Assembly: GCF_900101475.1 (NCBI RefSeq)
Contig: NZ_FMZV01000004.1
Span: 186,001-250,000, forward strand
DNA from: Ruegeria marina
Lineage (GTDB): Bacteria; Pseudomonadota; Alphaproteobacteria; Rhodobacterales; Rhodobacteraceae
DNA: 64,000 bases
Direction of reading: 5' to 3'
Below are positions 1,771 to 28,184 of the stretch, in pieces. Numbering within the stretch: position 1 is the stretch's first letter; each line of letters begins with the position of its first letter. The notes under the pieces were generated by a model. It searched no databases. It was not told the DNA's origin and saw nothing but the letters and a program-made list of their open reading frames with translations. The position numbers were made by a program, and so were the translations under genes.

Positions 1771-2556
1771 TCAAGGCGCCTCGATCCAGACGGGGACGCC
1801 GCCGGGCATCAGGGGGCGGAAATAGGCGATCATGCGCCCGTCCGGCCCGGCCTGCGCGTCCAGCGCCCAGGGGGCTACACCATGCAGGCAATGGCGATGC
1901 AGCAGGTAGGCCTCGCCGGGGACCGCATGCAGCCGCAGCATGGGACATGTCTCGAACACCTCGCGCCGCGCCGCCTGATAGGCATCGGTGACGTCAACCT
2001 GGTGCCAGTCTTCGGGCGGGTATCCTTCCAGGGCCCGGGCCAGCGCAGGGCCGAGGATGCGATGGCTGCCCTCCCACAGGATCATGGGTGCGGCCCCGGC
2101 ATCGGCGGCAGTCAGCGGCAGGCCCAGGATCCAGGCATGCGGTTCGTCCAAATGGCGGCGGCGGTCAGGGCCCGAGGGTTTCAACCCGTCCACATGCGCC
2201 GCGCCACGATTGAGACGATAGCGAAAGCCGGCCTCGCCTTCGCCCCGGCGCGGGCGGGGATAGCCGGAATAAGTGACCGAAACCTGTGCCTTGTGCAGCG
2301 GCAATGCGCGCAGATGGCGCGCTATGAAGTTCATCGCCTGCCCGGCCAGCGGCGGCCCGTCGCCCACCCGGCCCGCGCTGTCATTGTCGAGCGCATCGAC
2401 GCCGACAAACCAGGTGCCCTCACAATCGAGCCAATGTGCAAAAGCGGGGTCCGCAACTGCCCGGCGCGCAGCGGGCAGCGCATGGGCGACCCATTCGGCC
2501 AGTACCGGGTCGAACGGAAACCGCACCCAGCCGCGAGAGAGGAACTCCTCTACCAC
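1771..2556 (-). CDS. Phytanoyl-CoA dioxygenase (PhyH)-like Fe(II)/2-oxoglutarate oxygenase
   Basis: The GTG at 2556 gives 261 residues and overlaps the stop of the upstream permease gene by 7 bases, which is why I chose it over a longer open frame that only shadows the permease. The likely iron ligands are H and D in AAHVDGLKP and the distal H in LHRHCLHGVAPW; the following GRMIAYFRP carries an Arg suited to 2-oxoglutarate. This layout is typical of the PhyH/double-stranded beta-helix oxygenases. The substrate is unknown. Coupling to a TauE/SafE permease suggests a shared substrate or product, possibly an organosulfur compound, but that is inference. Confidence 0.7.
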   Translation of the reverse strand: MVEEFLSRGWVRFPFDPVLAEWVAHALPAARRAVADPAFAHWLDCEGTWFVGVDALDNDSAGRVGDGPPLAGQAMNFIARHLRALPLHKAQVSVTYSGYPRPRRGEGEAGFRYRLNRGAAHVDGLKPSGPDRRRHLDEPHAWILGLPLTAADAGAAPMILWEGSHRILGPALARALEGYPPEDWHQVDVTDAYQAARREVFETCPMLRLHAVPGEAYLLHRHCLHGVAPWALDAQAGPDGRMIAYFRPLMPGGVPVWIEAP

Positions 2557-3374
2557 CCGAGCGCCTTGCGCAGCATGTTGAGCGCCACCAGCGTCAGGAA
2601 CACGGCAAAGACGCGCTTGAGCGGTTTGGGGTCCATTGCATGGGCCAGCCTGACCCCCAAGGGCGTGGTGATCAGCGTCATGCAGATGACGACGCCAAAG
2701 GCCACCAGATTGACCGCCCCCACCGTCAGCGGCGGCCGCTGGGCCGGGTCGATCTGCAGAAACAGGAAGCCCAGCACCGAGGGAACCGCAATGATCACCC
2801 CGAACCCGGCGGCAGTCGCCACGGCGCGGTGAATGGGCGTATTGTAAAGGCTCATCAGCGGCACGCCGAAACTGCCGCCGCCGATCCCCATCAGAACGGA
2901 GAGAAAGCCCACGATCGGCGACATGATCACGCGGCGCACTCCGCCCGGCATCGCATCGCCCAACCGCCAATGCGCGCGGCCCAGCCCCAGATATGCACCG
3001 ATCACGATGCCCAGCACGCCGAACAGCGCCTGAAGCGCGACCGACCGCAGCGAGGCCGCCACCAGGACCCCCAGAACCGCGCCCACCGCGATTCCCGGCC
3101 CCCAGCCGCGCAGGATCACCCAATCCACAGCGCCCTTCTTGTTGTGGCTCAGGACCGACCGCAGCGAAGTCACGATGATCGTGGCCAGCGAAGTCGCCAG
3201 GCACATCTGCATCAATTGCGGGCCGCCATACCCAAGGGTCTGGAAGGCGTAGAAGAACGCGGGCACCAGCACGATGCCGCCTCCGACGCCCAAAAGCCCG
3301 GCCAGCACGCCGGCAAATGCGCCGATGACGACCAGAAGGGCCAGCATCTGCATCAGGAGGGTGGTATCGGGCAT
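2550..3374 (-). CDS. TauE/SafE family permease (first of three)
   Basis: 274 residues from the ATG at 3374. The family hallmark GVGGGIVLVPAFF lies in the first repeat and a matching VLMGIGGGSFGVPLMS in the second, giving two homologous halves with roughly eight hydrophobic segments. TauE/SafE proteins are inner-membrane exporters or carriers for sulfite, sulfoacetate and related small anions. The open frame extends 29 codons upstream, but those residues are hydrophilic and not family-like. Downstream the PhyH-like gene overlaps it, so they are one transcription unit. The substrate is not determined by sequence. Confidence 0.88.
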   Translation of the reverse strand: MPDTTLLMQMLALLVVIGAFAGVLAGLLGVGGGIVLVPAFFYAFQTLGYGGPQLMQMCLATSLATIIVTSLRSVLSHNKKGAVDWVILRGWGPGIAVGAVLGVLVAASLRSVALQALFGVLGIVIGAYLGLGRAHWRLGDAMPGGVRRVIMSPIVGFLSVLMGIGGGSFGVPLMSLYNTPIHRAVATAAGFGVIIAVPSVLGFLFLQIDPAQRPPLTVGAVNLVAFGVVICMTLITTPLGVRLAHAMDPKPLKRVFAVFLTLVALNMLRKALGW

Positions 3375-3463
3375 GCTCGGAACTCCGCCATTGGTCCCGG
3401 CATGGGTACACCGGAGATGCGCTGGGGAAAAGCGGCCATTCGGGCTCAAGTGCCCTGTCACGC

Positions 3464-7405: not shown

Positions 7406-8155
7406 CTACCAGCCACCGCTGACCGAACGGAAGACAAGGTTCAGGCCCAGTCCAGCAAAGGTGATCAGCAGCGCCTTGCGAAAGACCTCCGGATCGACTC
7501 GCCGACGCAATCCTTCGCCCAGAGTGAACCCCGCAAGCGTGGGCAGGACGAGAATTGCCGACATCACCGTACTCTGACCATCGGCATGGCCCAAGGCAAG
7601 ATAACCCATCAGCATGGGAACGGAGCCAACCGAGACCAGGAAGCCGGTAGCCTGCACGAACTCCTGCGGAGAGACCCGCCGGGCGAAAAGATACATGGCC
7701 AGCGGCACCCAACCCGCCGACAGGCCCGCCACGACCCCGGTCAAAAGGGCGGCGGCGGTCTCCACCCGTCCTGAGCCGGCTTGCGGTATCTCGGGCACCA
7801 GCTTCCACCACCCGGTCGCCGCGAAGACGATCACGACCGAACCCAGAACAAAGCCCAGCACCCGGTCCCCGGTATCGCGGCTGAGCCACAGGGTGATCGC
7901 AACGGAGAGGGCGAGAAGGATTGCAAACCGCCAATGCCGGCGGATGACAGAGGCAACCGGACCACCACGGATCATCTGCCAGAGATTGCTGACCAGCATC
8001 GGAACCAGGATCAGGCTCACAGCGGCACGCGGTTCCAGAGCGAGCGTCAGAAGTGCCATCGCAACCGTCGGCAATCCCAATCCGATGAAGCCCTTGATGC
8101 TGCCGGCCAGGAACAGAACCGCCGCCCCGATCACCAGAGTTTCGGTGTCACCCAT
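7406..8155 (-). CDS. TauE/SafE family permease (second of three)
   Basis: 249 residues with about eight hydrophobic segments in two halves. The first half shows GSIKGFIGLGLPTVAMALLTL, a form of the family motif in which GVGGG is replaced by GLGLP; the second half has LTGVVAGLSAGWVPLAMYLF. This is the shorter TauE/SafE subgroup found widely in proteobacteria. Substrate unknown. It stands alone between dusA and the nitroreductase gene, 79 bases downstream of the latter's stop, so co-transcription with it is possible. The ATG at 8155 has GAGGA directly adjacent, closer than ideal. Confidence 0.85.
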   Translation of the reverse strand: MGDTETLVIGAAVLFLAGSIKGFIGLGLPTVAMALLTLALEPRAAVSLILVPMLVSNLWQMIRGGPVASVIRRHWRFAILLALSVAITLWLSRDTGDRVLGFVLGSVVIVFAATGWWKLVPEIPQAGSGRVETAAALLTGVVAGLSAGWVPLAMYLFARRVSPQEFVQATGFLVSVGSVPMLMGYLALGHADGQSTVMSAILVLPTLAGFTLGEGLRRRVDPEVFRKALLITFAGLGLNLVFRSVSGGW

Positions 8156-8234: not shown

Positions 8235-9107
8235 TCACTCATCGCGCGTATCGGGATCAATTCGAAACCCCTTGACCCGAATGAATTCGGCAAAATCCGC
8301 CCGTTCGGGCACCGCATACTGGCGTGTCTTGTCGTCGGACCAGGTATAGGGATCGGCGCGGCCGAAACGCTCCTGCGCGCGTTGCCGCATGCCCCGTGTC
8401 TGCCCAGCCCGGCGCTGGTCATATTCGGCAATGGTCGCTTCGGGCTCGCCTTCGGAATAGCAATTTTCGTGAAAGGTCGCGGCAAGTGGCAGGCGCATGC
8501 TGAGGCGCGGTTGCGGGAACTCTGGCCAACCCACCGCAAGCGCTGCGACGGGAAACACATGTCCGGGCAGGCCCAGCACCGCGCTCACCTCATCTGCCGC
8601 GTTCCGGATGGTGCTGATCGGGCAGCACCCCAAACCCAGCGCCTCGGCCCCGGACACGCAGGCCGACAGCGCAATCGCCGCATCGACGCTGGCATTGAAG
8701 AATGCGTCGAGATGGTCGTTGGCAAAGGGTCGCCCCTGCATCTGGTGCAACTGACGCTGGCGGCGGTTGTTGGCACAGAACACAAGCAGTTCCGGGGCTC
8801 CGGCGATCCAGTCCTGCGCGCCGGCCAGCGCCTTGACCCTCGACGCCTGCGGCCCGCGCACCCAGATGATGTCGCGCTGTTGCAGGTCGCTCTTGCTGGG
8901 CGACGACAGAGCAATCGCCCCGAGGAGCCGCATCATGGCCTCGGGCACGGGCCGATCGGCGTAATGCCGGCACGACCCGCGCGACAGCATCGCATATGCC
9001 GCATCTGCCGCCGCCGGGGCAAGATCCAGCGCTGTCATGTCGATCCGGTCGCCGAACCGCGCCTCGATCACTGCGGCCAGCCTGGAACTCGATGTCTCGT
9101 CGCCCAT
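8235..9107 (-). CDS. Nitroreductase family FMN enzyme
   Basis: 290 residues. The FMN-binding N-terminal signature SRGSCRHYADRPVPEAMMRLL and the later GAEALGLGCCPISTIRN (family pattern EALGLG) identify the NfsA/NfsB-like fold. These enzymes use NAD(P)H to reduce nitroaromatics, quinones or flavins. The C-terminal 50 residues (RMRQRAQERFGRADPYTWSD type) resemble the NfsA-like branch. The gene reads leftward from an AT-rich promoter gap (9108-9203) that separates it from a relic cluster on the other strand. Confidence 0.85.
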   Translation of the reverse strand: MGDETSSSRLAAVIEARFGDRIDMTALDLAPAAADAAYAMLSRGSCRHYADRPVPEAMMRLLGAIALSSPSKSDLQQRDIIWVRGPQASRVKALAGAQDWIAGAPELLVFCANNRRQRQLHQMQGRPFANDHLDAFFNASVDAAIALSACVSGAEALGLGCCPISTIRNAADEVSAVLGLPGHVFPVAALAVGWPEFPQPRLSMRLPLAATFHENCYSEGEPEATIAEYDQRRAGQTRGMRQRAQERFGRADPYTWSDDKTRQYAVPERADFAEFIRVKGFRIDPDTRDE

Positions 9108-9203: not shown

Positions 9204-9762
9204 ATGGGGAACCTGTCTGCAATAACCCTTTCGGTCACCATCCAGCGCGGCACCGCAGAGGCCGTCCAGCTCCAGACCTGAGATGTGCCCGCCCAGGACA
9301 GCCAGACGGTGCTGGACGTGGTAAGCTGGATTCAACACAACACAGAGCCGACACTTGCCTATCGTTTCGCCCGCCGGGTGGGCATGTGCGGCAGTTGCGC
9401 GATGATGGTGGACTGTGTCCCGCGCCGGACCTGCCGCACCCATGTTCAGACCGCGCAAAGGGGGGCCAGCTGACAATCGGACCGCTTCGGAACCTGCCCC
9501 TGATCCGCGACCTCGTCGTGGACATGGACCCGTTCTTCGCAAAATGGACAAGGGCTGGCGGGCATCATCACCCTACTCGCGACAGAACCGCCCCCACCGC
9601 ACAGACGGACCCACAGACCACGTCTCCGGCTCGGGCGGCTGCCAGTCCTGCCATTCCATTGGAAGCTGCACGGCGCATAGCCCCAACGGTCTCGACCCGA
9701 CGGCGGCCATTGCCGGGCTGAGACGGGCCGCGGCCCGGCGCGCGCTGCGGGGACGCAGCTGA
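9204..9762 (+). pseudogene. Relic of a fumarate reductase/succinate dehydrogenase iron-sulfur subunit
   Basis: Three pieces of a FrdB/SdhB-like protein are readable. Frame 1 from the ATG at 9204 is stopped by TGA at 9279-9281, then continues in the same frame with QTVLDVVSWIQHNTEPTLAY and VGMCGSCAMMVD, the [2Fe-2S] domain. A frameshift at the G6 run near 9464 moves to a second frame with PLRNLPLIRDLVVDMDPFF. A third frame ends with CHSIGSCTAHSPNGLDPTAA, the C-terminal cluster domain, in which the last expected Cys is Ser (CTAHS for CTAHC). The middle is shortened. It cannot make a working subunit. The final TGA overlaps the next ATG, so the ancestral operon spacing is preserved. Confidence 0.85.
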
Positions 9763-10100
9763 TGCCGGACATGCGCCTCTACCTGCTCCAGCGGATCACC
9801 GCAGTTCTGATGGCGCCTTTCGTGCTGTTGCATCCGGGCGTCATGGTCCGGGCCATCCATGGTGGTCCGAGCGCCGCCGAGATACTCTCGCGGACCCATG
9901 GTTCCGACCTCTGGTTCCTGTTCTACCGCGGTTTCGTGCTGATCGCCGGTTTTCATGGCGCCATCGGCCTGCGGGTCATCCTGCCCGAATGGCTTGGCCT
10001 GCGCGGCGGGGCCCTCGTGCTGCCGCCGCTTGTCATCGCCGCCCTCCTGATCGCCACCGGGCTGCACGCGGTCGTTGCCGTGACCGGAGTCCGCTCATGA
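9762..10100 (+). CDS. Succinate dehydrogenase-like membrane anchor subunit, probably non-functional relic
   Basis: 112 residues with three hydrophobic segments: LLQRITAVLMAPFVLLHPGV, FLFYRGFVLIAGFHGAIGLR and PLVIAALLIATGLHAVVAV. The spacing and the His residues fit a heme-b/quinone anchor of the SdhC/SdhD type found beside FrdAB-like genes. The frame itself is intact, but both neighbours in the ancestral operon are broken, and odd substitutions (a Pro after the first-helix His) suggest drift. The start overlaps the stop of the iron-sulfur relic and its stop overlaps the next ATG, so coupling is still visible. I list it as a CDS because nothing in it is broken. Confidence 0.6.
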   Translation: MPDMRLYLLQRITAVLMAPFVLLHPGVMVRAIHGGPSAAEILSRTHGSDLWFLFYRGFVLIAGFHGAIGLRVILPEWLGLRGGALVLPPLVIAALLIATGLHAVVAVTGVRS

Positions 10101-10315
10101 GGTCGCACCCGCCCTGGCTTGCCTTTCTCACCCATCGCCTGTCCGGACTGGCGCTGGCGCTTTTCCTGCCGGTGCATTTCCGCGTCCTGGCCCTGGCGTT
10201 GACTGCCCCGGACAAGTTCGACCGTTACCTGAGCCTTGCCGAATATCCGCTTGTGAAACTGTCGGAATTCGCCCTTGTATTTCTTCTCGCCCTGCATGCG
10301 TTCGGAGGTCTGCGG
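10097..10315 (+). pseudogene. Truncated second Sdh membrane anchor (cytochrome b556-like)
   Basis: The ATG at 10097 begins a typical SdhC-like N-terminus (PPWLAFLTHRLSGLALALFL, then HFRVLALALTAPDKFDRYL) with two hydrophobic segments. It stops being SdhC-like after LLALHAFGGLR, where a third helix should follow; instead the frame runs straight into flavoprotein sequence. The join lies at about 10315-10360. The truncation is therefore a deletion that removed the third helix and the N-terminal FAD domain of the next gene while keeping the frame. Confidence 0.75.
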
Positions 10316-10925
10316 CCGATGGAGCAGGTGCTGGCCCAGAATGTCGAGCAGATGCAGGAACATCGGGCAGTCGGTCTGGTGCCGTCGCGGGACGGGTCGG
10401 CGTTGGCGAGTGTTCTGATGATCGACATGCGGCGCGGTCTCTTTCGGCTGGTCCGCGCCCGGGCGGTATTGATGGCCACGGGCCGCGAGCCGACCATGTA
10501 CCGCTATCATACGCCCTCGGGCGACAAGAGCATGAACGGGCTCGCGACGGCCCTGCGCGGCGCCGGCGGGCGTTTGCTGAACCCTGCCGGTCAACGCTTC
10601 ATGTTCGACTATGACGCCAAGGGCGAACGCGCCACGCGCGATGTGGTCAGCCGTGGCATCTATGCCGTGTGCGCCAGTTTTCCTGGAATGGTCAAGCGCT
10701 GAGCAGATTGCGGTTTCGACCTTGCCAAAGAAAAGGTCGAGGTGGTGCCGACCGCGCATTACTTCATGGGCGGAGTGGTGGTTGATGTCGACACCCGCAC
10801 CGCGCTTGAGGGTCGCTGTGTCGCGGGCGAGGACACCCGCCGCTCGCATGGCTCGAACCGGCTGGGCGGCAACGGCGTGGCCAATTCCACGGTGTTCGGC
10901 GGTATCGCCGGCGCGGTGACCGCCA
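10316..10925 (+). pseudogene. Fragmented fumarate reductase-like flavoprotein subunit fused in frame to the anchor relic
   Basis: The recognisable pieces are ARAVLMATGREPTMYRYHTP and DKSMNGLATALR, then GAGGRLLNPAGQRFMFDYDA and ERATRDVVSRGIYA, then GMVKR, and finally ADCGFDLAKEKVEVVPTAHY, EGRCVAGEDT and GSNRLGGNGVANSTVFGGIA. This is the FrdA/SdhA order, but the FAD dinucleotide-binding N-terminus, the substrate-site segment with the His-Pro-Thr-Gly motif, and most of the capping region are gone. A TGA at 10700-10702 replaces the Cys expected in KRCADCGFD. All pieces remain in one frame. It is dead by sequence. Confidence 0.85.
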
Positions 10926-11341
10926 CCGCCTCGTTCCACTTTGCCAAATGGCTGCCGGAATGGATGGCCCGCACCGGCGCGAAACTGATCGTCGGCAAGG
11001 GAGGCATGTCACCAAAGGACTACAAGGAACATTTCGTGCCCAACGGCGCGGTCTATCTATCGACGGTGGGTTACGGCACCGGCGCACTGCTGGGCCGCGA
11101 GGTCGAGCGCGTCGAGGCGGTGCACTGGCCTGCCGAACTGGGGATGGCGCAGGCAATGCGGGTGATCCGCTGCAATCGCATGGGTCCGTTCATCGTTGCC
11201 TCGGATCTCGACGGCACCTGCCTTTTCGAACGTGCGAACGCAAGGATCGCGGGCAATATCGAACATCTCTACGAAGGGACAAGACCGGCGGTGATGAAAC
11301 GCTCTGGTGAAACCGACGACCGGTCGGACGAAGTGATCTGA
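10926..11341 (+). pseudogene. C-terminal part of a class-I fumarase / tartrate dehydratase beta subunit, fused to the flavoprotein relic
   Basis: After FGGIAGAV the frame changes family: HFAKWLPEWMARTGAKLIVG, KGGMSPKDYKEHFVPNGAVY, EAVHWPAELGMAQAM and GPFIVASDLDG are the C-terminal domain of FumA/TtdB-type hydrolyases. The GKGG loop and the aromatic-rich AVHW..ELGM region are intact, but the N-terminal half of the subunit is missing. It stays in the frame that began at 10097. The alpha subunit with the [4Fe-4S] cluster is not in the window. The stop TGA overlaps the next ATG by one base. Confidence 0.8.
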
Positions 11342-11403
11342 TGCGCGGAGCCGATGTCGTCGCGCAGGTGCTGGCCAGGGCCGGAACCAGGGCCGTATTC
11401 CCT
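11341..11403 (+). pseudogene. N-terminal stub of a thiamine-diphosphate enzyme
   Basis: About 20 codons from the ATG at 11341 read MRGADVVAQVLARAGTRAVF, the usual beginning of acetolactate-synthase-like TPP enzymes (GADVVAQVL..AG...VF). The frame then turns into Arg/Pro-rich sequence with no family resemblance, so the rest of the gene has been deleted. It is the last visible member of the decayed cluster and lies just before the convergent TauE gene. Short length limits certainty. Confidence 0.5.
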
Positions 11404-11515
11404 GGCCGCGCCCGTGTTCTGACCGGTCGGCTTCGCCTTCATCTTTACGCAAGTGCTCCGGCGGAGTCGCCCGACGGGCGACGGGGGCGGTGCCGCCGAC
11501 CGGCCCCCCGCCGCC

Positions 11516-12274
11516 TTATCCCGCCAGCGCGTCCCGCAGCAGCATGCCAATGCCCAGGCAGAGGCACAGCAGGATCAGCAAGCGCTGGAACTGGGCGTCG
11601 GTGATCCGGTGGAACACGAAGATCCCGGCCTGCGCCGCCACGATACCTGCTGGCAGGACAACGGCGAAGGCTTCCAGCGTCTCGCGGCCATAGGCCCCTT
11701 TCAGCGCCAGACCGCAGATCGCGAACAGCAGGATCACCAGGTTGAAACTTTGCAGGACGGCGCGCGTCTCGCCGCGGGGCCAGCCGCGCATCGACAGCCA
11801 GATGACCGGCACCAGGCCCGACAGGGATGCCAGCCCCCCCATCACGCCGCCCACAAAACCGGCCGACCGGTCGATCCAGCGATGCGGCCGCTCCAGCCGC
11901 GGCAGCGCCTTTCGAAAACCGAAGTAGCCGCCATAGAGCACCAGAGACACGGCAATCAGGCGCCGCAACAGGTCGGCGTCCACCCGACCCAGCAGCAAAA
12001 GGCCCAATGGCACGCCCGCCAGGCCCGGCAGGATGAACCGCAAAACCCTGCGCAGGTCGGCCCGGATCTCGCCGCGCACCACCCACATGCCCTGGATCCC
12101 GGCGAGCACCGCAAGAAGCGCGGCCAGCGCCACCGCTGTTTCGGGATCGAACTTCAGCAGGAAGAAGGTCAGCGCGAAAAGCGCGGTCCCCATGCCGGAC
12201 AAGCCGTTCACGAAGCCGCCGGCGCACCCGCCAAGCGCCAGGAAGACGACCGTTTCCATGTTCACGCGCGGCAT
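11516..12274 (-). CDS. TauE/SafE family permease (third), beside sulfopyruvate decarboxylase
   Basis: 252 residues, about eight hydrophobic segments in two halves. The first-half motif reads GGFVNGLSGMGTALFALTFFL and the second half has GFVGGVMGGLASLSGLVPVI. It is last in a leftward group behind the sulfopyruvate decarboxylase pair (61-base gap) and a TRAP transporter. In sulfonate degraders, a TauE/SafE protein exports the sulfite released from the carbon skeleton, so that role fits here, though no sulfite-releasing enzyme is in the window. Starts at 12274, a GTG three codons on, and an ATG two codons later are all possible. Confidence 0.85.
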   Translation of the reverse strand: MPRVNMETVVFLALGGCAGGFVNGLSGMGTALFALTFFLLKFDPETAVALAALLAVLAGIQGMWVVRGEIRADLRRVLRFILPGLAGVPLGLLLLGRVDADLLRRLIAVSLVLYGGYFGFRKALPRLERPHRWIDRSAGFVGGVMGGLASLSGLVPVIWLSMRGWPRGETRAVLQSFNLVILLFAICGLALKGAYGRETLEAFAVVLPAGIVAAQAGIFVFHRITDAQFQRLLILLCLCLGIGMLLRDALAG

Positions 12275-12334: not shown

Positions 12335-12895
12335 TCAGCCTCCGGCGGCCACGGCCTTCATGAACCGGTCGCGGATGACAACCGGATCCATCGTGATCAC
12401 CGGCATCTTGCGGTTTCCGCTGTCGCATTTGGCGACGATCACCGTCATCTGCCGTGCCTCCAGCGCCTCGGTCAACACCCGGCCCGTGTCCTCGGCCGCG
12501 CATTCGATCACCCGTTCGCAACCCGCCGCCCGCGCCATCGCCGCCAGAGAGGTCTTGCGGCCGGCATAGGTGGGCTGGTCTCCGGTCGAACCGTAAGAGC
12601 CGTTGTCCACGATCAGCAGGATGTAATTGTCGGCGACATTGTTGGCGATGGTCGGCAGCGTGCCGAGATTGGTCAGCACCGACCCGTCTCCGTCGATCAC
12701 GATCACCGGCTTGGGCTGCGCCAGCGCCAGCCCCAGTCCGATCGACGAGGCCAGCCCCATCGTGCCCAACATGTAGAAATTGCTGGGCTGGTCGTCGATG
12801 GCATGCAGCTCCTGGCTAGGAATGCCGATGTTGCAGATCACCAGGTGGTCGCGCAGGATCGGGGCGATTTCGGTCAGGATGTCATATCGGATCAT
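12335..12895 (-). CDS. comE: Sulfopyruvate decarboxylase beta subunit (TPP-binding)
   Basis: 186 residues from the ATG at 12895, which overlaps the alpha-subunit stop. This is the C-terminal half of a TPP enzyme: GTMGLASSIGLGLALAQPKP and the diphosphate/Mg motif beginning VIDGDGSVLTNLG and ending VDNGSYGS. The split alpha/beta layout is that of sulfopyruvate decarboxylase (ComDE), which turns 3-sulfopyruvate into sulfoacetaldehyde. The homologous phosphonopyruvate decarboxylase is normally one chain, so I prefer the sulfonate reading; the substrate is still inference. A start 20 codons upstream is open but overlaps alpha deeply and is not family-like. Confidence 0.82.
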   Translation of the reverse strand: MIRYDILTEIAPILRDHLVICNIGIPSQELHAIDDQPSNFYMLGTMGLASSIGLGLALAQPKPVIVIDGDGSVLTNLGTLPTIANNVADNYILLIVDNGSYGSTGDQPTYAGRKTSLAAMARAAGCERVIECAAEDTGRVLTEALEARQMTVIVAKCDSGNRKMPVITMDPVVIRDRFMKAVAAGG

Positions 12896-13398
12896 TGATC
12901 GCCGTAGCCTCCCCAGAAGCTGGCATCCGTCAGGATTGCCACGGGCTTGTTGCACATGAATGTATATTTCAGGATCTGGTCCAGTTCCTCGACATCCGCC
13001 TGGCGATGAAAGTGATAGGTCGGAATGTTGAGCTGGGCCAGAAGCGCCTTGGTATGCACCGCCATCTCGACCTGGCAGGCCACGGGTTCACGCAACTCGC
13101 CGCGATACGAGATCAGCATCGGCAGCGGCAACCGGTAATACTGGATCAGCGTGGCCAGCGTGTTGATGGTGACGCCGATGGCGGTGTTCTGCATGATGAT
13201 GCAAGGGCGCTTGCCGCCCATCCATGCACCAGCGCACAGCCCCATGCCCTCGTCCTCCTTGTTCGAGGGCACATGATGGATACCGGGCCGCGCATCGACC
13301 TCTGCAATCACGCCGGCCAGTTGCTTGCAGGGCACCGTTGTCACGAACTCGATCCCGTTCGCTTGCAGGTCGTCCACGATCCTTGCGTCTATCGACAC
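12892..13398 (-). CDS. comD: Sulfopyruvate decarboxylase alpha subunit
   Basis: 168 residues, the N-terminal (PYR) half of a TPP decarboxylase. It has VTTVPCKQLAGVIAEV, then HVPSNKEDEGMGLCAGAWMG, where the Glu of NKEDEG is the residue expected to activate TPP, and QNTAIGVTINTLATLIQYY. Together with the overlapping beta subunit it forms one active site. In Roseobacters such pairs belong to 3-sulfolactate or DHPS breakdown. The TRAP transporter genes upstream (140-base gap) are the natural partner for uptake. Sulfoacetaldehyde acetyltransferase and the dehydrogenases of that pathway are not in this window. Confidence 0.82.
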   Translation of the reverse strand: MSIDARIVDDLQANGIEFVTTVPCKQLAGVIAEVDARPGIHHVPSNKEDEGMGLCAGAWMGGKRPCIIMQNTAIGVTINTLATLIQYYRLPLPMLISYRGELREPVACQVEMAVHTKALLAQLNIPTYHFHRQADVEELDQILKYTFMCNKPVAILTDASFWGGYGDQ

Positions 13399-13538: not shown

Positions 13539-14942
13539 CTAACCCGCAAGCGACGGCAACCACAGGACGATGCCGGGGAACGCCACCAGAAGCGCGATGG
13601 TCACCGCGTCCGCGACAAAGAACGGCGCCACCCCCCGAAACACGTCCTGCACGCTCAGGTCGGGGCGTACGCCCGCCACCACGAAACAGTTGAGCCCGAT
13701 GGGCGGCGTGATCAGACAGAACTCGGCCATCTTGACCACGAGGATGCCGAACCAGATCGCGCACATGGTCCCCGACATGCCAAAGGCGCTGTCGGCGGCG
13801 CTGACCGTCTCCCCGCCATTCAGCGCCATGACAGCCGGATAGACCACCGGCAGGGTCAGCAGCAGCATTCCGATCGCGTCCATGAACATGCCCAGCACCG
13901 CATAGGCCAAGAGGATGCAGATCAGGATCAGCATCGGCGACATGTGAAGCGAGGTGATCCAGTCCGCGAAGGCCCCTGGCAGGTCGGCAAAGCCAAGAAA
14001 GCGGACATAGATCAGGACGCCCCAGATGATCGTGAAGATCATCACCGTCAGCTTGGCAGTCTCAAGCAGCGCCGACTTCAACTCGACCCAGCGCATGCCC
14101 CTGTAGACCGCCATCAGGAACACGATGAAGGCGCCGATCGCCCCGCCCTCGGTCGGCGTGCCCCAGGCATCGCCGAAAGGGTTGTAGACAAAGAAGATGA
14201 TGATCACCACCACCGCCACGATAGGCAGTGCCGGCGGCAGCGAAACGAAACGCTCCTTCCAGGTGAACCCGCCAATGGGCGGACCGACCCGTTTCCAGAT
14301 CATGGCGATGCCGACGATGATCAGCGTGTAGACCAGGGCCGAAAAAGCGCCCGGGATGAACCCGGCCAAGAGCAGCTTGCCCACGTCCTGTTCGACGATG
14401 ATCGCGTAGATGACCAGGATCGCCGAGGGCGGGATCAGCGACGCCAGCGTGCCCGCAGCGGCAACCACCCCGGCGGCGAATTTCTTGTTATACCCGTTCT
14501 CGACCATCTCCGGAATGGCGATCCGGGCGAATACGGCCGAGGTCGCGACCGAGGCCCCCGACACGGCTGCAAACCCCGCCGTGGCAAACACGGTGGCAAC
14601 CGCCAACCCGCCCGGCACCCAGGCGATCCAGCGCTTGGCCGCTTCGAACAGCGCCTTGGTCAGGCCGGCGTAATAGGCAAGATAGCCGATCAGGATGAAG
14701 GTCGGGATCAGGCTCAGCGCCTGGCTTGCCACCTTGGAATGCGGGACCTGCCCGGCGGTCTTGGTCGCCACCGTCAGCGCCCAGCCGAACTGTGCCGGAT
14801 CATAGCCCTTCTTTGCCCAGAATATCCAGATCAGCCCGACAAGCCCGGCCATCGCCGCGGCAAAGGCCACGCGCATGCCCAGAACCACCATGACGAGCAG
14901 GCCAAGCGAGACAATGATGCCGATGTCGATGGTTTCCATCAC
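13539..14942 (-). CDS. dctM: TRAP transporter large permease DctM
   Basis: 467 residues, about 12-13 membrane segments. Typical DctM stretches include ATAGFAAVSGASVATSAVFA, ASLIPPSAILVIYAIIVEQD and PTEGGAIGAFIVF. It is the sodium-driven channel subunit of a TRAP transporter. Its ATG overlaps the dctQ stop by 4 bases. Together with dctP and dctQ it probably imports the acid handled by the ComDE-like decarboxylase. The stop is followed by a 140-base gap before comD, enough for a separate promoter. Confidence 0.93.
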   Translation of the reverse strand: MMETIDIGIIVSLGLLVMVVLGMRVAFAAAMAGLVGLIWIFWAKKGYDPAQFGWALTVATKTAGQVPHSKVASQALSLIPTFILIGYLAYYAGLTKALFEAAKRWIAWVPGGLAVATVFATAGFAAVSGASVATSAVFARIAIPEMVENGYNKKFAAGVVAAAGTLASLIPPSAILVIYAIIVEQDVGKLLLAGFIPGAFSALVYTLIIVGIAMIWKRVGPPIGGFTWKERFVSLPPALPIVAVVVIIIFFVYNPFGDAWGTPTEGGAIGAFIVFLMAVYRGMRWVELKSALLETAKLTVMIFTIIWGVLIYVRFLGFADLPGAFADWITSLHMSPMLILICILLAYAVLGMFMDAIGMLLLTLPVVYPAVMALNGGETVSAADSAFGMSGTMCAIWFGILVVKMAEFCLITPPIGLNCFVVAGVRPDLSVQDVFRGVAPFFVADAVTIALLVAFPGIVLWLPSLAG

Positions 14943-15574
14943 GTATCCTCCCGGCCGGTAACCGCCTCGGCCTCGCGGGCGGCGATGGTTGCGGCATCTT
15001 CGATCAGCGGCACCGCAACCGGATTGTCCGTGCCCAGCAGGATTGCCCGGCCATAGGCCCAGAGTTGCAGGACCAGCCTGAGCGCAAGCACGGAAAAGGC
15101 CAGCGGCACGACCAGTTTGGCCGGCCAGATCGGCAGCTTGATGTCGATTGTGCTATCCCGGCTCCAGAGCGGCGCGGCGAAATCGAAGCTGCGCTGGAAA
15201 TGCGCCCAAGACCCCCAGATCAGCAGCAGCACCAGAAGCAGCACCAGCAGGGTGGTCACGAACTCTGCGATCCACAGCCAGCGGCCCCTCAGCCTGCTCA
15301 CCAGGATATCCATCCGGATATGAACGCCGTCGCGCTGCGCATAGCTTACCGCCATGATCGCGATCAGAGGCATGGTGATCTCGATCCAGTCGACATAGCC
15401 GCGCACCGGGCTGTTGAGGATGTTGCGCCCGCCCACCGAATAGACAGCCAGGATCATCAGGGCGAACACGGACAGCCCGCTGACAAGGCCGAACATCGTC
15501 TCCAACCTGTATAACCCCCGATCCAGCCGGCTCAGCAGACTGTCATCGGCAAGCACCGAGGCTTTGATCGCCAT
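14939..15574 (-). CDS. dctQ: TRAP transporter small permease DctQ
   Basis: 211 residues with four hydrophobic segments, as usual for DctQ: VSGLSVFALMILAVYSVGG, EITMPLIAIMAVSYAQRD, FVTTLLVLLLVLLLIWGSW and LVVPLAFSVLALRLVLQLW. The family residues around VHIRMDILVSRL follow the second helix. It scaffolds DctM and docks the binding protein. A strong hairpin (15611-15634) separates it from dctP. Its 3' end overlaps dctM (ATGA). Confidence 0.9.
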   Translation of the reverse strand: MAIKASVLADDSLLSRLDRGLYRLETMFGLVSGLSVFALMILAVYSVGGRNILNSPVRGYVDWIEITMPLIAIMAVSYAQRDGVHIRMDILVSRLRGRWLWIAEFVTTLLVLLLVLLLIWGSWAHFQRSFDFAAPLWSRDSTIDIKLPIWPAKLVVPLAFSVLALRLVLQLWAYGRAILLGTDNPVAVPLIEDAATIAAREAEAVTGREDT

Positions 15575-15610
15575 GGCCCTGCTCCCTCATTGGATTTTGA
15601 ATGAAAAGGC

Positions 15611-15634
15611 GGCGCACCCCGGCCCGGGTGCGCC
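15611..15634 (-). other. Hairpin between dctP and dctQ
   Basis: GGCGCACCC and GGGTGCGCC form a perfect 9-bp stem with a 6-base loop, 14 bases beyond the dctP stop and 36 bases before the dctQ start. There is no T tract on the minus strand, so it is more likely an mRNA-stabilising or attenuating stem than a full terminator. Such stems let the binding protein be made in excess over the permeases. Confidence 0.6.
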
Positions 15635-15647
15635 CCACGTCCGGGCC

Positions 15648-16652
15648 TCAGCGGCCCAGCGTGCTGATCACGAGATCATAGAGTTCCTGTGCGGGCAGGC
15701 CGCGCGCAGTGTTGTCCTCGATCCACTTCGCCGCCACCGGGCCCGCGGCCTTCTCGCGAAACTCGGCCAGACGCTCCTCATTGTAGCTGATCCGCTCGAC
15801 TCCCTTTTCCTCGAGCAGCGGCCACCATTTCTTCATCGTCTGGTTTTCATAGAAGTCGATGTAGTACTCCATCGCCTCGTCGACCGAACCCAGCAGCGCG
15901 TCGCGCTCCGCGTCGCTGAGCGCGTTCAACGCATCGGTATTGACAACCACCGGGCAGTTCACCGTGCCGGGGTTCAGGTTGTCACTCCACCACTTCGCCA
16001 CTTCCATCACGCCAAAGGACATGTGCGCGTGCGGCGCAAATGCGATCGACTTGACGATGCCGGAGTCGAGCGCCTGGCGCGCCTCCTCCGAGGTGACCGA
16101 GGTCGGCACCGCTCCGATCAGGCTCAGCGCCTCGCCGATGCCGCCGGTGGCGCGCACGGTCAGGCCGTCGAAATCCTTGAGTGTGCGCGGCGGCTCGCCC
16201 ACGCCCGCGATGTTGTATTGCGGCAGCGGCGAAGGCATCAGCAGCGTCGCGTTCCAGCGCGCCAGATCGGCGGCAGTGGCCGGATGCTCATAGACCGCCT
16301 GCGAAACCTTCCATTCCTCTTCCAGCGTACTGACACCCAGAAACGGCAATTCCAGAACCGTGATCGAGGGGTTTTTGTCCGCATGGTAACCGGCGCAGAA
16401 CTGCGCCATCTCGAAAGCGCCGATCGAGATACCGTCAAGGTTCTCGGTATTCTTGCTCAGACCGCCATAGCTGATGTTCATGGTGAAACTGCCGCCGGTC
16501 TTTTCGCTCACGAGTTCGGCCAGCTTCTCGATATGCTCGGTAAAGGCCCGACGCTTGCCCCAGACCGACACGTTCCATTCGGTTGCGCCTGCTTCAGCGG
16601 CGAACGAAACGGCCACGGCGGCCACGACCGCGCCGCTCAACATCTTGTTCAT
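15648..16652 (-). CDS. dctP: TRAP transporter substrate-binding protein DctP
   Basis: 334 residues from the ATG at 16652, with GGGAGAGAC upstream. A signal peptide (MNKMLSGAVVAAVAVSFAAE, cleavage likely after AGA) precedes a DctP-family body: RAFTEHIEKLAELVSEKTGG, MAQFCAGYHADK, and LKDFDGLTVRATGGIGEAL, where the conserved Arg that salt-bridges the substrate carboxylate sits in GLTVRATGG. It delivers an organic acid to DctQM. The exact ligand is not predictable; the decarboxylase downstream suggests a sulfonated C3 acid or a 2-oxo acid. Confidence 0.9.
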   Translation of the reverse strand: MNKMLSGAVVAAVAVSFAAEAGATEWNVSVWGKRRAFTEHIEKLAELVSEKTGGSFTMNISYGGLSKNTENLDGISIGAFEMAQFCAGYHADKNPSITVLELPFLGVSTLEEEWKVSQAVYEHPATAADLARWNATLLMPSPLPQYNIAGVGEPPRTLKDFDGLTVRATGGIGEALSLIGAVPTSVTSEEARQALDSGIVKSIAFAPHAHMSFGVMEVAKWWSDNLNPGTVNCPVVVNTDALNALSDAERDALLGSVDEAMEYYIDFYENQTMKKWWPLLEEKGVERISYNEERLAEFREKAAGPVAAKWIEDNTARGLPAQELYDLVISTLGR

Positions 16653-17115
16653 GAAGTCTCTCCCTTTGTGGCGGCCTTGTTCGACCGCTCGCGGACAAGC
16701 TAGCGCCAACAGTGACGCATGCCAAGCCCGCCGAACACCGACTCGGCCGGTATCGCAAACGCATAAAGATTGCGGATTGAAGGCGGGCCCCGAAACATTA
16801 TGTCACACCCGCGAACCCGAATTGCCTCGGTCGGTTTCCGGCGCAGCCGCCCCAAAACGGAAAGCCCACATCGCGAGATATTGACAAGATGGCTGCCGTT
16901 TTCATTGAGATATTTGACCTGTTCAGGCGCTATCATTTACAACTTCTCGGTATGCGAAAAAATACTTTACAGACAATCCTTTGAAATCCAGTAATTTATT
17001 TCATTGTTTTCAATTTCAACTATGATCTGCGCAGGGTCGGAAGCGGATCGACAACACCAGGTTCTCCGGGTGATATCGGTCACAGTGAAATTTCTCAGAG
17101 GGAGGAACCTCATCC
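16653..17115. other. Divergent intergenic region between dctP and acs
   Basis: 463 bases without a convincing gene. It becomes AT-rich from about 16,920 to 17,030, which is unusual here and fits promoter DNA for acs. A TTGACA is at 16881-16886 and a TATGAT at 17021-17026, but they are not a matched -35/-10 pair, so I do not assign a promoter. GGGAGGAAC before the acs ATG is the ribosome site. Confidence 0.5.
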
Positions 17116-26678: not shown

Positions 26679-28184
26679 TCATGGCACCAAGATGAAGTTA
26701 TCCTCCTCCAGGCTGGGCAACTGGATGTCGATCAGAATAACCTGATCGCCCGGAGAGCCGATCACCACGTTGTTTCCGTCCTGAACCATGATGGACTGGA
26801 TAAAGGCAAAGTTGCCGCCGAAGACCGACAGGTTCAGCACATCGTCCACGGGTGAGAAGAAGAAGACCGAGTTCTCGCCGCTCTCATGCCAGATCGTGTC
26901 CTGCCCCGGGCCGCCGTAGATCTGATTGTTGCCGGGTCCTCCAAGGATCAGGTCGTTGCCGGCCGCCCCGAAGATGATGTCGTCACCAGCGCCGCCCAAC
27001 AGTGTATCGTTGCCCAAACCGCCAAATAGCTGGTCATCGCCGCCCGCGCCATCCAGACTGTCGTCGCCTATGCCGCCGCCCAGCGTATCAGACCCCAAAT
27101 CACCGCCGCCCAGCAAAGTGTCATTGCCCGAAGATCCCCAAAGCTCGTCGTTTCCACCTTCGCCGTTCAGGCTGTCGTTCCCCAGAAAGCCGCCGATGGT
27201 GTCGTTCCCCTCGCCGCCGCCCGCTGTATCGCTACCGTCGCCCCCCCATAGCTGGTCATTGCCGTCGCCGCCCTCGATGATGTCATCCCCGGCGCCACCG
27301 CCAGCGGTATCGGCGCCCTCGCCGCCCTGGATGGTATCGTTGTCGCCGGCACCCCAAAGCGCGTCATTGCCTCCGTCGCCACTGATCAGGTCGTTGCCGT
27401 CGGTGCCGCCGATCAGGTCATCGCCGTCGCCGCCCTCGATCGTGTCATCACCCGCAGCCCCGAAGATCAGATCGTTATCCGCGCCCCCGAAAAGCTGGTC
27501 ATTACCCGGGCCGCCGCCCAGAAGATCCTCACCGGGGCCGCCGCTGATCTGATCGTCGCCTGGGCCGCCGAACAACAGATCGCCACCGTTCTCGCCCAGC
27601 AACGAGTCATTGCCCAGGCCGCCCGAACCGGTGTCGTTGCCGGGACCACCGTTGATCAGGTCTGCCCCTCCTTCCCCGAGGATATTGTCGTTGCCGCCCA
27701 GACCGGCGAGCAAATCATCACTGTCGAACCCCCGTATGACATCGGGCCCGTCGCTACCGTTGGCACTCAGAAAGTTGCCCGCAACCAGCGGAAAGATCGC
27801 GTTGAAGAAATCGGGATAGTTCGTTCGCGTCGGCTCGCCGCTGCCCATCGCTGTCAGGTTGCGCAGATGATTCAACGACAGCGGCGAGGGAAAGTCGATC
27901 TGGACCGTATTGAAATCTTCGTCCACGAAAACAGCGGAATAGATGGGCCTATCGACAGTTGGCGACGGATTTGGGTTGCCCTGGTCGGAAAAGAAGAACG
28001 AGACGGAACCGCCATTGAGCAACGGAATGTTGTTGGGACTGGCAGGGCCTAGTTCGGAAAAGGTAACGCTTTCCAGTTGCTCCAAAATCAGAAAGCCTTC
28101 CACAAATGCGCCATCCCGAATAATCGTTAGCAACACCTGCTGAACGGTCAAACCTTGAACGCCGAAGTCGCCGTTGATGCGCAT
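26679..28184 (-). CDS. RTX-type calcium-binding repeat protein, probably secreted by type I system
   Basis: 501 residues. After an N-terminal domain of about 145 residues that I do not recognise, roughly 30 tandem nonapeptides follow (about residues 150-440) of the pattern GGxGxDxLx, for example [21 protein letters not shown] and GNDTLLGGA. These form calcium-filled parallel beta-rolls. The C-terminus ([10 protein letters not shown]) has the acidic-hydrophobic tail common in type I secretion substrates, and there is no Sec signal. The DNA is an imperfect 27-bp tandem repeat. No T1SS genes lie nearby. AGGAAGGA precedes the ATG. Function may be surface adhesion or matrix; this is inference. Confidence 0.88.

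Follow-up and report, generated by a model that had tools for sequence, protein, structure and literature searches.

According to the excerpted text of PMC11489063, the bacterial degradation of 3-sulfopropionate was previously unreported apart from a thesis by J. Mayer cited there, in which Roseovarius nubinhibens ISM uses homotaurine via 3-sulfopropionate, sulfoacrylate, and sulfolactate. The same excerpt derives 3-sulfopropionate from homotaurine and describes its production by Enterococcus gilvus from sulfoquinovose or 2,3-dihydroxypropane-1-sulfonate (DHPS). We analyzed a 64,000-nucleotide stretch of the Ruegeria marina genome (contig NZ_FMZV01000004.1, positions 186,001 to 250,000 of the forward strand; here, the window), which carries at positions 9204 to 11403 the remains of an operon for a complex-II-like enzyme and a class-I-fumarase-like hydro-lyase. 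R. nubinhibens ISM carries an operon of this type together with TauE, LysR, and TctC genes (L063; flavoprotein match at 10001-11761), with ∼1.2 kb between the alpha and beta genes. In the literature surveyed, which was covered in part, the genes of this operon are not named for 3-sulfopropionate, and a paper that names them may exist. Our overall interpretation, to which we assign a probability of roughly 60%, is that the operon encodes a putative 3-sulfopropionate dehydrogenase and sulfoacrylate hydratase and that the window holds its relic.

The relic core spans positions 9204 to 11341 (2,138 bp), compared with 4,776 bp and 5,050 bp for the intact operons at L033 and L029, two loci of relatives that served as references for protein and DNA alignment. 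It is the remnant of six genes, encoding an iron-sulfur (FeS) subunit, two membrane anchors, a flavoprotein, and the alpha (deleted) and beta subunits of a hydro-lyase, and is followed by the start of a thiamine pyrophosphate (TPP) enzyme gene. All pieces lie on the plus strand between a minus-strand nitroreductase-family gene and a minus-strand TauE/SafE exporter gene. By tblastn they are collinear with the intact operons of relatives, which in L033 run FeS subunit (242 residues), anchors (110 and 113 residues), flavoprotein (588 residues), alpha (320 residues), and beta (226 residues). The DNA blocks are 69 to 84% identical to L029, and ancestral overlaps are preserved as TGATG at 9760 and 11339 and ATGA at 10097. 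A preliminary description of this DNA, made from its letters and open reading frames, had recognized the FeS, anchor, flavoprotein, beta, and TPP pieces in one orientation with overlaps still visible. Pfam matches and alignment to intact operons bear this out, with the correction that the alpha subunit is wholly missing and only ∼20 TPP codons are left.

The FeS remnant (9204..9762, plus strand; Pfam Fer2_3, E = 1.6e-12) begins with the 2Fe-2S domain and ends with a C-terminal piece; it aligns to the L033 protein as three tblastn pieces, has lost ∼170 bp relative to L029, and has Arg in place of one conserved Cys. Anchor 1 (9762..10100, plus strand; SdhD-like, Sdh_cyt, E = 1.3e-8) is the only piece to retain a whole frame and is 52 to 69% identical to the best 15 intact operons listed. 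The SdhC-like anchor 2 (10097..10328, plus strand; Sdh_cyt, E = 5.6e-10), of which the last third is gone, aligns over residues 6 to 79 of 113 by tblastn. The flavoprotein remnant (10313..10918, plus strand; FAD_binding_2, E = 7.5e-8 and 1.1e-7) falls within residues 148 to 410 of 588. Two inner deletions leave residues 148 to 229, 263 to 301, and 329 to 410, with a stop at 10700; the N-terminal flavin adenine dinucleotide (FAD) part, substrate residue His243, and C-terminal domain are absent. About 2.0 kb, including the whole alpha gene, is gone relative to L029 before the beta remnant (10910..11341, plus strand; Fumerase_C, E = 6.9e-9), which covers residues 83 to 225 of 226 and is 76% identical to L033 FumB at the protein level and 78% to L029 at the DNA level. 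The first ∼20 codons of the TPP enzyme (11341..11403, plus strand) have no Pfam or NCBIfam match; a profile built from 20 intact N-termini retrieves them at an E value of 0.00035, as its sole match with E < 1 across the six-frame window, and positions 11339 to 11384 match the beginning of the TPP gene of L029 at 83% DNA identity.

Stops at 9279, 9471, 9501, and 10700 disable the reading frames, those at 9471 and 9501 lying after a frame change at a G6 run (9460 to 9465) in the FeS remnant. Alignment with L029, the means that had been proposed for mapping the losses, gives five deletions of ∼170, 550, 110, 70, and 1,990 bp net, as measured from aligned blocks (∼2.9 kb in all). The ∼550-bp deletion takes the end of anchor 2 together with flavoprotein residues 1 to 147, one of the two deleted inner flavoprotein stretches holds His243, and the largest deletion takes the flavoprotein C-terminus, all of alpha, and the first 82 beta residues. 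Three of the junctions share short bases (12/16, 8/10, and 6/10 equal between both L029 parents, chosen post hoc), a hint of slipped recombination.

We also counted changes at residues invariant (at least 98%) in 79 to 85 intact rows, with intact rows left out singly as a control. The relic changes 39/300 such residues, or 23/276 excluding the frame-shifted FeS piece, and intact rows left out in this way change 0.3 to 1.0% on average. By piece, the relic changes 4/34, 16/24, and 3/13 in the FeS subunit, 0/24 in anchor 1, 1/19 in anchor 2, 11/116 in the flavoprotein, and 4/70 in beta; the respective values for the most divergent intact row are 3/35, 3/25, 1/13, 4/25, 4/21, 10/118, and 17/70. 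Two observations count against decay: outside the FeS subunit the oddest intact row nears or exceeds the relic in substitutions, and the fused frames of anchor 2 with the flavoprotein and of the flavoprotein with FumB are open over 201 and 212 codons. Because substitutions outside the FeS subunit do not by themselves separate the relic from that row, the case for decay rests on the deletions, stops, and frame change. On these grounds, 9204 to 11403 is almost certainly a nonfunctional operon relic. It is a product of ordinary gene decay, and the decay looks recent. The earlier view that every piece is damaged holds for the stops, the G6 frame change, the deletions, and the lost residues; it fails for anchor 1, which is whole and unchanged at all 24 invariant positions.

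The host assembly (4.99 Mb, 51 contigs) is 99.98% complete, and a search for a second working copy found nothing but the relic and a complex-II homologue of 35% identity. The operon was rightly described as eroded between intact genes, and the search revealed no intact version of it elsewhere in the assembly. Base composition gave no signal that the fragment is of foreign origin (relic, 65.0% GC; window, 64.0%), and a relic common to sister species was found in none of the four examined.

Intact clusters had been expected in relatives and are readily found there. When 101 genomes were searched at the DNA level, 16 showed a match, namely the host, eight relatives with the operon (one of them cut by a contig end), and seven genomes with short matches. 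The flavoprotein occurs in 33/295 family genomes, with an internal stop in one of them (G217). It was not found in the five genus genomes, which were covered by protein search for the host (G000) and G002 and by DNA searches only for the sister species G001, G003, and G004. A search of named genomes yielded 576 confirmed stretches, of which the best 80 are the named loci used below; more are unlisted, and several of the contigs are short. By title these loci are mostly Rhodobacterales, with some Rhizobiales and Gammaproteobacteria. One record, L123 (titled Oceanobacillus sp. HTM 045), is probably misnamed or contaminated. Most of the 80 named loci carry the operon, with the flavoprotein in 80, anchor 2 in 79, alpha in 78, anchor 1 in 78, the FeS subunit in 77, and beta in 74. 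Plasmid records gave 17 matches, in Paracoccus, Methylobacterium, Sulfitobacter, Cupriavidus, Pseudomonas, and others; the neighborhoods of 10 were examined, 9 of them with gene annotation.

The intact proteins resemble known families but mostly score below the curated cutoffs. Against the succinate dehydrogenase/fumarate reductase (SDH/FRD), TfrA, and NadB-type models, the L033 flavoprotein falls under the curated cutoffs of all 25 shown, of 28 matched; with TIGR01812 it scores 401.5 of the 567.3 bits required for SDH/FRD membership. Residues H243, R292, H356, and R390, whose catalytic roles we take from alignment with PDB entry 2b76, are kept in 85/85 intact flavoproteins. The position of the covalent-FAD His (H44 of FrdA) is occupied by Cys53 in the L033 protein (L033:8214-9977) and in the 84 others (85/85). 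Glu261, likewise invariant in 85/85, replaces the Thr of the TEG motif, a substrate contact. The L033 alpha subunit passes TIGR00722 (208.6; cutoff, 100.65), its beta subunit fails the TtdB/FumA-type model TIGR00723 (112 of 145.15), and neither subunit reaches the cutoffs of the equivalog models for fumarate hydratase and tartrate dehydratase. For the TPP enzyme, the roles of sulfopyruvate decarboxylase and Xsc were considered; its L033 form scores below the cutoffs of all 25 models shown, out of 51 matched.

The operon is linked to sulfite handling by its neighbors. Of the 80 named loci, 49 have a TauE-type exporter, 10 a SorA-like sulfite dehydrogenase, and 7 a YeiH exporter; at least one sulfite exporter or oxidase gene is present in 54/80 loci and in 40/52 of those longer than 21 kb. 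For TauE, the background is 47 family genes in six genomes (∼25.8 Mb), i.e., ∼0.04 expected per stretch. Similarly, in 8/9 annotated plasmid records the stretch shown includes a gene for TauE, for a sulfate/sulfite exporter, or for a sulfite dehydrogenase; the Sulfitobacter sp. S190 plasmid has no sulfite-type gene in its stretch. On one plasmid from Sulfitobacter, a gene annotated as 3-sulfinopropanoyl-coenzyme A (CoA) desulfinase follows the operon at a distance of ∼9 kb (L159:23490-23740).

Within the stretches covered, genes of the sulfolactate side were found in 6/80 named loci and in 4/10 plasmid records examined. One stretch of Paracoccus versutus pTAV3 holds the operon, YeiH, NIPSNAP, TauE, and LysR, then an Ldh-family gene and a hydroxyacid dehydrogenase gene (ComC-/SlcC-like), TctCBA, HpsP/HpsO/HpsN-like genes, a UxaA pair, another sulfate exporter, and sulfite oxidase; P. 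ferrooxidans resembles it over the region covered. In Methylobacterium radiotolerans NYY1 the operon, in another gene order, is accompanied by TPP, TauE, a UxaA pair, and an Ldh-family gene, and in NT-25 by tripartite ATP-independent periplasmic (TRAP) transporter, sulfolactaldehyde (SLA)-3-reductase-like, and GabD-like genes. At L097 it lies near HpsN-, SlcD-, and ComDE-like genes, in a gene order resembling that of the Ruegeria pomeroyi hps operon and slcD as given in the excerpted text of PMC4334477. Across the family, comE is present in 16/33 flavoprotein-bearing genomes versus 51/262 others (P = 0.0006), and xsc is present in 28/33 versus 158/262 (P = 0.007), both by Fisher tests that ignore kinship.

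Taken together, these proteins and neighbors make it very likely that the intact operon belongs to a sulfonate pathway. A C3-sulfonate that yields sulfolactate by dehydrogenation and hydration would be 3-sulfopropionate, and we regard this exact substrate and product as probable. The complex-II-like enzyme would oxidize 3-sulfopropionate to 3-sulfoacrylate, passing electrons to the quinone pool, and the class-I-fumarase-like hydratase would convert 3-sulfoacrylate to 3-sulfolactate. Sulfolactate could then leave through SuyAB, giving pyruvate and sulfite, or through SlcD/SlcC, ComDE, and Xsc, giving sulfoacetaldehyde and then acetyl phosphate and sulfite. The sulfite would be exported by TauE or YeiH or be oxidized. 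Such a pathway would be a sulfonate copy of the succinate-fumarate-malate(-oxaloacetate) sequence. Extending this, we lean slightly toward viewing the intact operon as a horizontally mobile "sulfo-tricarboxylic acid" module, its flavoprotein being present in 33/295 family genomes, and found on plasmids as well. In it, a Cys-site complex-II paralogue (perhaps with cysteinyl-FAD) would carry out quinone-linked 3-sulfopropionate oxidation and a fumarase paralogue would hydrate 3-sulfoacrylate, and the window would show the module dying while the downstream enzymes stay.

Several findings weigh against this assignment. The replacement of the flavinylation His by Cys means that the direction of the reaction is not readable from the sequence. 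No sulfolactate-type gene was found, at the thresholds used, in 74/80 named loci, nor in the plasmid loci L159, L160, L161, L166, L167, and L168; furthermore, 17/33 flavoprotein-bearing genomes are without comE and 5/33 without xsc. The sulfolactate-type genes themselves are in part loosely assigned. The Ldh-family proteins match L-sulfolactate dehydrogenase best in NCBIfam, at 203.9 and 160.1 of 500 bits, and in the PDB the P. versutus protein scores higher with piperideine-2-carboxylate reductase (220.8 bits) than with sulfolactate dehydrogenase (142.7 bits). The UxaA pair we liken to SuyAB by size and order only; the large UxaA proteins match galactarate dehydratase far under the cutoff, the small ones match nothing, and no sulfolyase model is matched by either. 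The NT-25 reductase falls just under the SLA-reductase cutoff (324.3 of 348). Its GabD-like neighbor passes the succinate-semialdehyde dehydrogenase cutoff and has as its best match PDB entry 8c54, which we take to be the Rhizobium leguminosarum SLA dehydrogenase. The excerpted text of PMC10599462 does not give this code. Finally, the TPP, SorA-like, NIPSNAP, CoA-transferase, and nitroreductase genes are explained partly at best by the minimal route.

The best-surviving alternative, which we consider unlikely, keeps the substrate and moves the hydration to the sulfonate carbon of 3-sulfoacrylate. The product would be the bisulfite adduct of malonate semialdehyde, releasing sulfite and malonate semialdehyde, which MmsA would convert to acetyl-CoA. 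Sulfite would then be made directly, accounting for the sulfite genes without SuyAB or Xsc, and the genomes without comE would pose no difficulty. In Pseudomonas sp. MPC6 the operon is immediately followed by an MmsA-like gene (L160:13409-14899; TIGR01722, 695.3 bits; cutoff, 448.5), and in Cupriavidus sp. P-10 a 61% relative lies on the opposite strand, 1.4 kb upstream (L168:6693-8168); both genes are a hint that malonate semialdehyde is formed in these strains, and both also count against the sulfolactate route. However, no MmsA at 55% identity was found in the flanks of the 80 named loci, sulfolactate-type genes adjoin several operons, and the thesis route, as cited in the excerpted PMC11489063, names sulfolactate.

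A more doubtful alternative is that the substrate is 2-sulfosuccinate, which would be oxidized to sulfofumarate and hydrated at the sulfonate carbon to give sulfite and oxaloacetate. This proposal departs least from what complex II and fumarase do natively, requires no further enzymes, and agrees with the TctABC-type (tricarboxylate) transporters in many loci. It leaves the sulfolactate-type genes beside operons unexplained, however, and tripartite tricarboxylate transporters carry sulfolactate too (SlcHFG, in the excerpted text of PMC5812351); a literature search on sulfosuccinate, with sources seen in part, gave no lead.

Slightly less probable again is an unusual true fumarate reductase or succinate dehydrogenase with a fumarase, acting on carboxylates only and with no sulfonate role. 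The best family matches (TfrA, SdhA/FrdA, and class I fumarase) and the kept catalytic residues favor such an enzyme, but the flavoprotein lies under the cutoffs of all 25 models shown and the operon has sulfite and sulfonate neighbors. Fumarate or succinate had been put forward in the preliminary description as the ancestral substrate. That suggestion is not supported, as the L033 flavoprotein and beta subunit are below their cutoffs and the neighbors are sulfite genes and, in part, C3-sulfonate genes; its companion suggestion of a little-described pathway is supported.

Operation in reverse, from sulfolactate through sulfoacrylate to 3-sulfopropionate as an electron sink, seems very unlikely. 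The Cys at the flavinylation position in all 85 flavoproteins and the SLA-reductase-like and GabD-like genes adjoining the NT-25 operon would suit it, but the adjoining sulfite exporters and oxidases suggest sulfite release, which the reverse route would not give. Least credible is the proposal that the short frames are functional small proteins and no relic: the whole anchor 1, the two open fused frames, and anchor and beta substitutions inside the range of intact rows are compatible with it, but the FAD part, the substrate His, one conserved FeS-domain Cys, and the alpha subunit have been lost, the frames are interrupted by stops and a frame change, and the same short frames were seen in none of the 100 relatives or four sister species checked.

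The genes around the relic fit the preferred sulfonate reading, under which TauE, ComDE, and TRAP would be surviving neighbors. Downstream lies an intact TauE/SafE exporter gene (11516..12274, minus strand; PF01925, E = 4e-33; 47% identical to the L033 TauE), which is either the operon's surviving exporter or a counterpart proper to the genus. It is followed by intact genes for the sulfopyruvate decarboxylase subunits ComE (12335-12955, minus strand; TIGR03846, 238.6 bits; cutoff, 221.5) and ComD (12892-13398, minus strand; TIGR03845, 151.3 bits; cutoff, 147.95), both of which exceed their curated cutoffs. A TRAP transporter (13539..16709, minus strand) comes next, with DctM (TIGR00786, 222 bits, under the cutoff of 268.45), DctQ (by position only), and DctP (PF03480, E = 4.1e-22). 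The adjacent uptake module is related to the relic, as had been supposed, through its genes for sulfopyruvate decarboxylase and TauE. On the other side, the intact nitroreductase-family gene (8235..9107, minus strand; PF00881; 111.5 of 223 bits with an NfsA-like model) is divergent from the relic, and a divergent nitroreductase gene stands at the same place in 15/80 intact loci and elsewhere in one more. Beyond it is a second TauE/SafE gene (7406..8155, minus strand; PF01925, E = 1.5e-20). Three TauE/SafE-family genes lie inside 10 kb (2550-3461, 7406-8155, and 11516-12274).

The relic and nitroreductase gene stand between two TauE genes only in the host among the five genus genomes. G003 and G004 have the order TauE-TauE-TRAP-acs, with ∼100 bp between the TauE genes and neither nitroreductase nor relic between them; G001 and G002 have ComDE-TRAP-acs. 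Since ComDE exceed their cutoffs and xsc is present elsewhere in the genome, above its own cutoff, the host could still make use of sulfopyruvate. Searches of its genome turned up no close orthologue of hpsN or slcD, both of which are present in the four sister species: the best HpsN match is 63% in the host and 84 to 97% in three sisters (the fourth supplied the query), and the best SlcD match is 41% in the host and 65 to 77% in the four sisters. The host lineage reads as one that has lost feeder routes into sulfolactate and retained the lower part. The 3-sulfopropionate feeder step would have been lost through stops, a frameshift, and deletions, with ComDE, TauE, TRAP, and xsc kept. Two further elements of the window deserve mention. 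A short GC-rich element at 11436-11501 is repeated across the genome and sister species at 74 to 88% identity and is perhaps a terminator-like repeat. A gene with RTX calcium-binding repeats (PF00353) at 26679-28184 is unrelated to the relic.

If the proposed assignment is true, genes for the missing 3-sulfopropionate steps are common in the family and on plasmids. The relic adds an example of stepwise loss of a feeder pathway; the main interest lies in the operon assignment, which is a testable proposal.

Compared with complex II (SdhABCD/FrdABCD and TfrAB), the intact operon shares the four-subunit layout, the [2Fe-2S] domain, the two short anchors, and the catalytic residues. It differs in a flavoprotein that scores below the cutoffs, with Cys at the covalent-FAD His and Glu for the TEG Thr, and in being packed with a hydratase and with sulfite and sulfonate neighbors. 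Likeness to class I fumarase and the L-tartrate dehydratase TtdAB extends to an alpha subunit that passes TIGR00722; the beta subunit, in contrast, fails TIGR00723, and both subunits fail the equivalogs. With respect to the sulfolactate and DHPS pathways (hpsKLMNOPQ, slcD, comC, comDE, suyAB, and xsc; R. pomeroyi and R. nubinhibens), the relic would be a feeder into them, in a genome where no close orthologue of hpsN or slcD was found; the likeness consists of ComDE in the window, xsc in the genome, and such genes adjoining some intact operons. The 3-sulfopropionate route of R. nubinhibens ISM differs in that the window has a relic only and in that its genes are unnamed in the excerpted text of PMC11489063. 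Its chemistry would need such a dehydrogenase and hydratase, and the strain has the operon.

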